A stretch of DNA of 64,000 bases from Saprospiraceae bacterium. Its GTDB lineage: Bacteria; Bacteroidota; Bacteroidia; Chitinophagales; Saprospiraceae. Where the stretch lies: positions 1 through 64,000 of the forward strand of contig JABDKX010000099.1 of the NCBI GenBank assembly GCA_013001975.1, written 5' to 3'. Positions 19,949 through 20,529 of this stretch are shown one piece after another. The first letter of the stretch is position 1. Every line of letters begins with the position of its first letter. The notes beneath the pieces are model-generated. The model was not told the origin of the DNA, did not search any database, and was given only the letters and a program-made list of their open reading frames with translations. Made by a program: the position numbers and the translations under genes.

Positions 19949-20034
19949 GGCAAGCAGAAGCGCTCAAACGGAATGTTTTATAGAAAACATACAATTATAT
20001 TTTAAATGAGGGTATAGCTCAGTTGGTTTAGAGC
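19949..20034 (+). repeat. Upstream copy of an 86-base direct repeat (promoter plus tRNA-Val 5' half)
   Basis: This stretch is identical to 20118-20203. It contains the region upstream of the tRNA and its first 27 bases. The two copies are 169 bases apart and separated by the 83-base three-hairpin element. The identity implies a recent duplication. Confidence 0.85.
20008..20034 (+). pseudogene. Truncated tRNA-Val, 5' half
   Basis: This piece holds the 5' acceptor strand GAGGGTA and the D arm of tRNA-Val(GAC). The copy stops after the D arm (AGAGC) and runs into the three-hairpin element instead of the anticodon arm. It cannot form a tRNA but keeps the duplicated upstream region, so it may still be transcribed into the element. 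Confidence 0.85.
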
Positions 20035-20117
20035 ATGAACGAATGATCATGCAATGCATTATCAAAGGTCGTAAACCGACCTTTTAAATGAGAGAACCGA
20101 ATCATCAGATTCGGGAG
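20035..20117. repeat. Three-hairpin element, copy 1
   Basis: This 83-base insert follows the tRNA-Val 5' half. It has an imperfect first hairpin (6-bp stem at 20033-20038 with 20047-20052, or a bulged stem at 20042-20060). A perfect 8-bp hairpin follows at 20064-20084 with loop TAAAC, then a perfect 7-bp hairpin at 20097-20114 with loop ATCA. The second and third hairpins are 12 bases apart, exactly as in copy 2 at 20348-20439. Paired positions differ between the copies in a compensatory way (G-C against C-G in stem 2, T-A against A-T in stem 3). There is no ORF. Confidence 0.75.
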
Positions 20118-20203
20118 GGCAAGCAGAAGCGCTCAAACGGAATGTTTTATAGAAAACATACAATTATATTTTAAATGAGGGTATAGCTCAGTTGGTTTAG
20201 AGC
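20118..20203 (+). repeat. Downstream copy of the 86-base direct repeat
   Basis: Identical to 19949-20034. This copy leads into the complete tRNA-Val gene, so it carries the functional upstream region. Confidence 0.85.
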
Positions 20204-20251
20204 GCTGCCTTGACAGGGCAGAGGTCCACAGTTCGAGTCTGTGTATCCTCA
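20177..20251 (+). tRNA. tRNA-Val (anticodon GAC)
   Basis: The 5' acceptor strand GAGGGTA pairs with TATCCTC at 20244-20250, with discriminator A at 20251. The D arm is intact. The anticodon stem CTGCC/GGCAG encloses the loop TTGACAG, giving anticodon GAC (Val). The T arm CACAG-TTCGAGT-CTGTG is complete. CCA is not encoded. A terminator-like hairpin follows. It is the only complete tRNA in the window. Confidence 0.95.
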
Positions 20252-20256
20252 CATCT

Positions 20257-20289
20257 CTCTCCTTCGCTGAAGCTTCGGAGAGCCGTTTT
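20257..20289 (+). terminator. Terminator-like hairpin after tRNA-Val
   Basis: The arms CTCTCC (20257-20262) and GGAGAG (20277-20282) enclose a 14-base partly self-complementary core and are followed by CCG and a run of five T. It lies 5 bases after the tRNA. Related hairpins recur at 20472 and 20504 with the core inverted. Confidence 0.65.
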
Positions 20290-20336
20290 TACAATATCTT
20301 CAGCTAAGTAGAACCATCATTTACTATTATAATATC

Positions 20337-20347
20337 GCCTTGACAGG
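20337..20347 (+). pseudogene. tRNA-Val fragment, anticodon region
   Basis: This 11-base piece GCCTTGACAGG matches the anticodon arm of the intact tRNA-Val (20207-20217). It abuts the second three-hairpin element, and the rest of the 3' half resumes at 20440. Alone it would be too short to call; the position next to the element and the T-arm fragment make it convincing. Confidence 0.6.
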
Positions 20348-20439
20348 ATGACTAAACGGTCCTAATGGAATTAGGATCAAAGGTCCTAAATGGACCTTTG
20401 AAGAGCAGGAACCGAAACATCAGTTTCGGATGGGATGCT
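20348..20439. repeat. Three-hairpin element, copy 2
   Basis: This 92-base element separates two pieces of a tRNA-Val 3' half. Stem 1 is TCCTAA/TTAGGA (20360-20365 with 20371-20376). Stem 2 is 8 bp at 20379-20399 with loop TAAAT. Stem 3 is 7 bp at 20412-20429 with loop ATCA. Stems 2 and 3 are 12 bases apart, as in copy 1. Loop sequences are nearly the same while stem bases covary, which suggests selection on structure. No coding potential is seen. Confidence 0.75.
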
Positions 20440-20467
20440 GTCCACAGTTCGAGTCTGTGTATCCTCA
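20440..20467 (+). pseudogene. tRNA-Val fragment, T arm and 3' acceptor
   Basis: This sequence repeats the T arm, the 3' acceptor strand TATCCTC and the discriminator of the intact tRNA (20224-20251), followed by the same ACATC-CTCTCC lead into a terminator-like hairpin. It has no matching 5' half, so it is a relic. Confidence 0.85.
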
Positions 20468-20471
20468 CATC

Positions 20472-20529
20472 GCTCTCCGAAGCTTTAGCGAAGGAGAGCC
20501 GTTTTCTCCGAAGCTTAAGCGAAGGAGAA
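20472..20529. repeat. Two tandem terminator-like hairpins
   Basis: Hairpin one has arms GCTCTCC (20472-20478) and GGAGAGC (20493-20499), followed by CGTTTT. Hairpin two has arms TTCTCC (20504-20509) and GGAGAA (20524-20529). Their 14-base cores read GAAGCTTTAGCGAA and GAAGCTTAAGCGAA, which is close to the reverse complement of the core in the hairpin at 20257. They may terminate the tRNA relic and, from the other side, the universal stress gene. Confidence 0.6.

Follow-up and report, generated by a model that had tools for sequence, protein, structure and literature searches.

An apparently undescribed family of folded palindromic repeats in Saprospiraceae, candidate mobile elements acting as single-stranded DNA

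Two copies of a structured element stand on either side of an intact tRNA-Val gene in the window, the 64,000-nucleotide stretch of a Saprospiraceae contig (JABDKX010000099.1, positions 1 to 64,000) analysed here. They belong to a real and apparently undescribed family of dispersed folded repeats of approximately 87 bp, matched by a covariance model of 87 positions with helix P1 included (R2) in 55 of 199 sampled Saprospiraceae genomes and in 36 of 112 genera. Our preferred reading, which we hold to be probable though far from secure, is that these are non-autonomous REP-like mobile palindromic repeats acting as folded single-stranded DNA, with a mover outside the element and no specificity for tRNA-Val. 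Mobility as folded DNA is the best-supported reading of the data, the ends being those seen in alignments, with no empty-site pair giving ends and flank together. No description of such repeats for Saprospiraceae, of the family among tRNA-inserted palindromes and structured Bacteroidetes repeats, or of the literal element motifs was found in the open-access literature searched, where the shortest motif matched one unrelated plant paper. The repeats would constitute a family-wide class of small repeats with a fold far more elaborate than that of REPs and no visible mover.

Element copies and tRNA-Val fragments in the window

The following features were located, numbered from the first letter of the window.

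19949..20034, + strand, left unit of an 86-bp exact direct repeat (86/86 identical), made of upstream flank and tRNA-Val nt 1-27
20008..20034, + strand, tRNA-Val(GAC) 5' fragment, nt 1-27 (27/27 identical), stopping after the D arm and abutting copy 1
20035..20119, + strand, element copy 1, 85 bp, covariance-model match 1-87 of 87
20036..20044, + strand, P1 5' strand of copy 1, TGAACGAAT, which can pair with 20088-20096
20044..20064, + strand, P2 hairpin (stem 1) of copy 1, imperfect, from folding
20064..20084, + strand, P3 hairpin of copy 1 (stem 2 of the initial annotation), AAAGGTCG-TAAAC-CGACCTTT
20088..20096, + strand, P1 3' strand of copy 1, the linker immediately 5' of P4
20097..20114, + strand, P4 hairpin of copy 1 (stem 3 of the initial annotation), CCGAATC-ATCA-GATTCGG, then GAGGG
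20118..20203, + strand, right unit of the 86-bp direct repeat, beginning at the 3' end of copy 1 and extending into the intact tRNA gene
20177..20252, + strand, intact tRNA-Val, anticodon GAC (ARAGORN; Rfam RF00005, 65.8 bits)
20336..20347, + strand, tRNA-Val anticodon-region fragment, CGCCTTGACAGG, left neighbour of copy 2
20348..20434, + strand, element copy 2, 87 bp, covariance-model match 1-87 of 87, P1 partly degenerate
20440..20467, + strand, tRNA-Val 3' fragment, nt 48-75 (28/28 identical), right of copy 2

The covariance model scored copy 1 at 87.2 bits (E 1.4e-16) and copy 2 at 97.3 bits (E 8.3e-19), both copies being among the 22 sequences used to build that model and the values deriving from 412,739 bases of loci that do not sample genomes at random. 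The initial annotation had described two copies sharing three hairpins; reading and a repeat search confirmed these together with its stems 2 and 3 and their loops, and the 12 bases given between the two stems are correct. In copy 2, stem 2 is AAAGGTCC/GGACCTTT with loop TAAAT and stem 3 is CCGAAAC/GTTTCGG, the loop ATCA being found in both copies. That description understated the locus, where a fourth helix, P1, and the 86-bp direct repeat are also present. As read from the sequence, P1 of copy 1 (20036-20044/20088-20096) can combine Watson-Crick and tandem G.A pairs with one A.A mismatch. In the predicted folds, the bases at the ends of P2 could alternatively be part of P1 or P3. Among 200 dinucleotide shuffles of each copy, none folded as well as the copy itself, with z of -3.2 (copy 1) and -5.0 (copy 2) when folded as RNA and of -5.0 and -8.0, respectively, when folded as DNA.

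The left unit of the 86-bp repeat stops exactly at the left end of copy 1 (offset 0); the repeat search returned the same repeat as 91 bp at 98% identity. Copy 1 had been said to follow a tRNA-Val 5' half and copy 2 to split a 3' half. The adjacency of copy 1 holds but the "half" consists only of nt 1-27, and copy 2 does have a tRNA-Val 3' fragment on its right while its left piece comes from the anticodon region. The intact tRNA-Val announced between the copies is indeed there, and ARAGORN and Rfam found nothing else in the window. The fragment at 20336-20347 may be an attachment-site remnant, since a similar element-free duplicate occurs in a same-genus genome (L333, positions ~505-650, genome G011), where an intact tRNA-Val is followed by a duplicate 3' part from CCCTTGACAGG and the locus has no element match. 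In another locus of the genus (L330), an element and a spacer resembling that of the window (GCAAGCAG..GCGCTCAAACG) lie upstream of tRNA-Val. Consequently, the window layout may be a duplication of element, spacer and tRNA 5' part, of which the first element has since decayed. An assembly error is unlikely to be the whole explanation of the window duplication because the same design occurs in 55 of the 199 genomes sampled.

Other observations were made around tRNA-Val. A 27-bp hairpin, CTCTCCTTCGCTGAAGCTTCGGAGAGC, lies 3' of the tRNA at 20257-20283 and again at 20472-20498 (also 20505-20528), inverted between the flank copies; the inverted pair is 96% complementary, as if flipped or rewritten by fold-back copying. 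In L335 (genome G003), tRNA-Val nt 1-23 stands before two elements and a second tRNA-Val ends at about nt 40. The frame after this cut-off tRNA resembles what we take to be a tyrosine-recombinase gene, perhaps that of an integrative element in the same tRNA. The window also encodes a presumably MoaA-like protein, whose closest relatives are found in Saprospiraceae metagenome-assembled genomes (68% identity).

A covarying four-helix fold

The element contains four helices, of which P1 closes a three-way junction with P2 and P3 while P4 comes after. P1 pairs the 5' leader TGAnnGAnn with the linker nnGAnnGAA immediately 5' of P4, GAACC standing before P4 in the alignments. The ends are sharp over 123 copies, with (A)TGAnnGAnnGG on the left and GGG on the right. 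In an alignment of 133 distinct sequences, fitted to P2-P4 and not to P1, 92.6% of the cells are paired versus 59.0% in shuffled and 33-44% in slid controls, bearing in mind that collecting copies with a fold-based model favours paired sequences. The covariation score is 0.707 versus 0.173 when shuffled (none of 500 shuffles as high) and 0.056-0.107 in slid controls. The conserved structure proposed from the two window copies is borne out by this covariation, and compensatory helix changes of the kind expected in a structured RNA family are present. Covariation in dispersed repeats is by itself no proof of a functional RNA.

P1 was examined in 96 representatives, copies at least 85% identical to an earlier one having been removed. 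Its four variable positions are paired in 57/96, 84/96, 72/95 and 79/94 cases (shuffled means 29, 66, 40 and 60), each above all 2000 shuffles. The conserved GA steps would face each other as tandem G.A in 91/96, 92/95, 71/96 and 75/96, and a single one of these four positions exceeds the shuffles (71 vs at most 69); the predicted tandem G.A pairs are supported by letter conservation, not by covariation. Watson-Crick pairs replace them in some copies.

The 2157 stem cells of P2-P4 comprise 2067 Watson-Crick pairs, 25 G.T, 13 A.C and 52 others, while the acceptor and T stems of 27 tRNAs from the same loci contain 21 G.T among 324 cells and no A.C. G.T pairs hence amount to 1.2% in element stems versus 6.5% in tRNA stems (Fisher p 5e-8, the cells being non-independent); for each tRNA gene of the control the best of a few end offsets was taken, which biases the control towards Watson-Crick pairs. 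The elements fall short of the G.U level ordinary in a structured RNA. Such rarity of G.T is unusual for an RNA fold under selection and speaks rather for an element folded as DNA; it fits a DNA fold or stems repaired by copying one arm from the other. P1 speaks against this with 25 G.T vs 7 A.C, a hint of strand-specific selection. The structured RNA that had been considered possible agrees with the compensatory changes and is made less likely by the scarce G.U pairs. Identity with a known RNA family was rejected: Rfam at curated thresholds matched only tRNA in the window and 20 loci, and at a permissive threshold it matched no known RNA family in 701 bases of element region.

Size and distribution of the family

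A DNA search of 100 relatives with copy 2 as query and the covariance model both revealed many copies. The covariance-model search of relatives had been proposed with the initial annotation, for which a lack of further copies would have spoken against the element; further copies were found. Model R1 has matches in 20 of 60 relatives, with 5 in the window's genome and at least 59 in G011, copy numbers that are lower bounds as at most 74 candidates were scored per genome; the window's own genome (G000) holds 4-5 copies. In a sample of the phylum, 3 of 395 genomes have matches, all three in the same family, and none was found outside the family among the 11 candidates scored per genome, which weakly supports its absence there. 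The copies studied come chiefly from one genus and were chosen by score with a model of the fold. They are dispersed, palindromic, numerous per genome and mostly intergenic, as REPs are, with only one of the 96 representatives lying within a predicted frame. Tandem arrays occur, with junctions in P3 or just 5' of it (L017, L018, L019).

Two more copies from the window's genome stand at contig ends (contigs C256 and C257; L025, L026), where the element and near flank are common before the sequences diverge. Repeats of this family may break assemblies. Further small hairpins lie within the P3 or P4 loops of L107, L114, L116, L132 and L158, e.g. CCTGTCTCGAC...GGAGAGAGAC and CCTGTAGGACGGTGCCTACTGG; the loops therefore seem to be targets for other small repeats. 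Many copies in several genomes of the genus are embedded in a larger repeat, with sequence similar to TTTCGTTTTTGTTTCAAGAC on the left and to GCCGGCGAGGCAA on the right (L029, L035, L087, L088, L091, L094, L112, L118, L121, L134), perhaps a composite unit. In L093, L102, L128, L154, L158 and L160, the copies stand after GTCAGAATTAGGATTTTTAGG-like sequences, which may be another dispersed repeat and a preferred target.

Placement at gene ends and in tRNA genes

With reading frames predicted mechanically, 56 of the 96 representatives have a sense-strand frame as upstream neighbour, and 15 of these begin between -42 and +10 relative to its stop codon, including three orthologous bamA copies and two lysS copies; the remaining 81 lie outside that range of any sense stop codon. 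Among the 40 with an antisense frame downstream, none falls in this range relative to the 3' end of that frame and a single one has an overlap of 73 with it; two representatives begin at most 17 nt from the start of an antisense upstream frame. Genes ending at elements include, as we assume from their protein sequences, homologues of bamA, lysS, ftsH, radC and nqrF. An RNA role would also be compatible with this preference for the sense strand at stop codons.

An intact tRNA (Val, Gln, Pro, Asp, Cys, Ile, Glu, Arg, Phe or Met) lies within 150 bp in 12 of 100 loci, which by a rough estimate gives p ~1e-4 if about 3.3% of intergenic positions are that close. The proposed check for matches in tRNA genes is thus positive for these 12 loci and negative for the other 88, which have none so near. 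Flanks matching a tRNA at 30 bits or more number 17 of 312 versus none of 1560 shuffles, the tRNA set having been made from the same loci and intact neighbours counting as matches. Same-strand matches that meet the element (within 7 nt) stop at nt 22, 23, 24, 27, 27, 38, 67 or the 3' end; for matches to the other strand the end lies at nt 1 (twice) or 33. In L104, a tRNA gene, Glu by reading, is split in its anticodon arm by the element. Specificity for tRNA-Val was rejected: of 63 genomes of the family with a tRNA-Val match, 30 loci were scanned and 2 carry an element, as do 3 of 11 further loci scanned in the genus. The suggested tie to tRNA-Val hence survives as recurrence and not as exclusivity, several tRNA kinds being involved.

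Orthologous sites at bamA and lysS

Based on 3' ends from 30 genomes, the native bamA gene mostly ends in ...GFEPE-stop. The model finds elements directly following this native end at 4 of the 30 loci (G005, G003, G009, G011), whose carriers form one clade (support 0.993), and none at the other 26, including those of the same-genus genomes G000, G002, G004, G007, G008, G010 and G013; G001, G006 and G012 had no bamA match and stand outside the comparison. At bamA, the 5' strand of P1 is native gene sequence, stop codon included. In G003 the last codon is GAC instead of GAG, and the linker is changed to match (GTTTAG vs GTTTAC). When the stem arms of the four orthologues are delimited by eye, Watson-Crick pairs fill 121 of 129 stem cells, invariant tandem G.A pairs fill the other eight and none is G.U. 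Every stem varies among the four, P2 the most. This insertion looks vertically inherited and kept, which runs counter to a purely selfish element.

At lysS, the model finds the element in G005 and G011 (2 of 30 loci) and at none of the other 28, G003 and G009 included. The LysS of G003 is 95% identical to that of G005 (280-aa query), yet only the G005 gene is followed by the element. This pattern implies either two insertions at one site or losses. Such patchiness among relatives, with the dispersal over 55 of 199 genomes, agrees with the mobile hairpin envisaged in the initial annotation.

A P1 guide that is always host-derived was rejected. The leader is element-owned at the window copy, L023, L028 and L151, as no continuation into it is seen beyond the right tRNA copy; in L150 and L128, the sequence after the right copy does continue into leader-like sequence. 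Native sequence enters P1 only at some sites, clearly at bamA and by reading at lysS and an nqrF-like gene. The bamA, lysS and tRNA-Val sites can be compared between relatives and provide a natural test of whether selection or arm-to-arm copying keeps the stems paired.

Repeated left flanks and the search for a mover

The left flank recurs downstream of 25 of 151 elements (20 loci), and 17 of these repeats end exactly at the element's left end; shuffled controls gave 0 of 151. These counts refer to the 151 of 158 elements with enough flank. With the anchor shifted 60 nt upstream, 12 of 150 still show repeats, and seven of the 12 lie in the same loci. These loci are thus rich in repeats, and some of the flank repetition is explained by local tandem duplication. 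The repeated flanks measure 13-120 bp and in some cases a spacer comes after them, whereas a transposase produces a target duplication of fixed length.

Clustering of 1011 reading frames revealed no gene common to more than five of 129 loci, and a recurrent neighbour gene was rejected as carrier, since the largest clusters cover five loci and none is a mobile-element gene by reading. No autonomous copy or relative was found among the 129 loci either. Y1 transposase domains (PF01797) gave 24 matches in 10 of 14 genus genomes. Among the 31 genomes compared, PF01797 is without match in 4 of 15 element-rich ones and in 4 of 16 without element matches. These are drafts in which the gene could be missed, although one of the four element-rich genomes is 98% complete in ~40 contigs. 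The element model found nothing up to E of 1 at 20 of the 24 Y1 loci of the genus; 17 of these show other palindromes by reading, and a home-made stem-loop pattern gave two chance-like matches among the 20 (L043, L049). Y1/RAYT was therefore rejected as a required carrier. Two loci of the window's genome (L042 and L050; contigs C157 and C215) contain divergent Y1/RAYT-like genes with short palindromes of their own, the L050 gene holding an internal stop codon.

Proposed mechanism and alternatives

According to our preferred reading, a trans-acting enzyme would recognise the fold on exposed single-stranded DNA and join its left end to, or inside, another folded sequence or the end of a gene. 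DNA synthesis would then return upstream of the junction, which could produce both a duplicated left flank (86 bp in the window) and a truncated tRNA before an intact one. Fold-back arm copying, recombination between copies or selection on the fold may keep the stems paired as their letters change. Where an element stands at a stop codon, its stable structure may in addition influence how translation terminates or the 3' end of the mRNA, by likeness with what is reported for E. coli REPs close to stop codons.

The elements could instead be cis-acting structured RNAs at mRNA 3' ends or beside tRNAs, whose fold would stabilise the transcript, end it, regulate it or slow termination, with dispersal as a secondary matter. 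The sense bias at stop codons (15 versus none in the same range, one overlapping further), the fold kept at bamA in one four-genome clade with a linker that follows GAG to GAC, and the 25 G.T against 7 A.C in P1 all point that way. For E. coli, REPs located no more than 15 nt from a stop codon are reported to lower translation (PMC12306157). We nonetheless regard such an RNA as rather unlikely given that G.U makes up 1.2% of stem cells, compared with 6.5% for tRNA stems, and is absent from the 129 cells of the bamA set, the lack of an Rfam match in the window, element region and 20 loci, the 81 of 96 representatives away from sense stop codons, and the tandem arrays. We also judge unlikely a new kind of single-stranded DNA mobile element with a non-Y1 mover, in which the fold would be closed by pairing of an internal guide, 5' of a hairpin, with the host's own sequence at the left boundary, the guide being matched to its site by target choice, fold-back copying or later selection, as at bamA.

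We consider it quite improbable that the elements are genuine REP or IS200/IS605 satellites for which a Y1 HUH transposase is the mover, the linker serving as guide and cleavage falling in the leader or left flank: PF01797 has no match in 4 of 15 element-rich genomes, no element was found at 20 Y1 loci, no conserved GTAG or GGAG stands at the left end or before P4, and repeated flanks are not expected from Y1 chemistry. Such a satellite would account for a fold maintained with few G.T pairs, and a stretch immediately 5' of a hairpin that pairs with the left boundary is also how guide and cleavage site are laid out in IS200/IS605 (PMC8266576). Very improbable, in our opinion, is spread without transposition, by template switching, tandem duplication at hairpins and recombination between copies after rare transfers. 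It would explain tandem arrays with junctions at P3 (L017, L018, L019), layouts in which an element separates two copies of one sequence, such as the 86-bp repeat, and, following L330, a window arrangement that could have arisen by duplicating element, flank and tRNA 5' part. It leaves unexplained the many unrelated sites with sharp element ends and the patchy presence at lysS.

Comparison with known systems

MITEs carry the terminal inverted repeats of an autonomous transposon and a fixed-length target duplication. Here the TGAnnGA and GGG ends are not inverted repeats, the repeated flanks vary from 13 to 120 bp and no autonomous relative was found among the loci studied. BOX, ERIC and other small intergenic repeats are dispersed, structured, non-autonomous and ~100 bp long; they are similar in size and dispersal, belong to other lineages and are likened here by description, not by sequence.

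IS200/IS605 elements insert without target duplication. Among our elements, a left flank repeated downstream was detected at 25 of 151 and not at the others, and either a target duplication or local tandem duplication may be involved. In IS200/IS605, a guide immediately 5' of the hairpin pairs with the left-boundary cleavage site (PMC8266576). The ends of IS608 and ISDra2 hence resemble our elements in that sequence 5' of a hairpin pairs with the left boundary, a resemblance of pairing only, through the covariation of P1. The helix here has nine positions with two G.A steps instead of a tetranucleotide, no transposase gene was found, flanks are repeated at some copies, and the Y1 transposase TnpA has no match in 4 of 15 element-rich draft genomes.

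Rickettsia palindromic elements are ~100 bp long, have no known mover, insert in genes and can supply codons. We know of none with a closed three-way junction containing tandem G.A pairs. They share palindromic sequence, size and an unknown mover with our elements and are set apart, by description, in another lineage; RPE-1 is mentioned in PMC3733652.

The closest likeness is with REP/BIME sequences mobilised by TnpA-REP (RAYT): REPs are small, dispersed, palindromic, mostly intergenic, often at or overlapping stop codons, form arrays and are thought to act as folded single-stranded DNA (PMC8266576, PMC12306157, PMC3733652). A genomic TnpA-REP gene of the Y1 type, commonly flanked by the same repeats, characterises REPs; here 4 of 15 element-rich genomes have no Y1 match, and the model found no element at 20 of the 24 Y1 loci of the genus. 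A REP is a single hairpin of 20-50 nt. In our elements no GTAG or GGAG tag was seen; they measure ~87 bp, fold into four helices, have some junctions in tRNA genes and show a repeated left flank at 25 of 151 copies.
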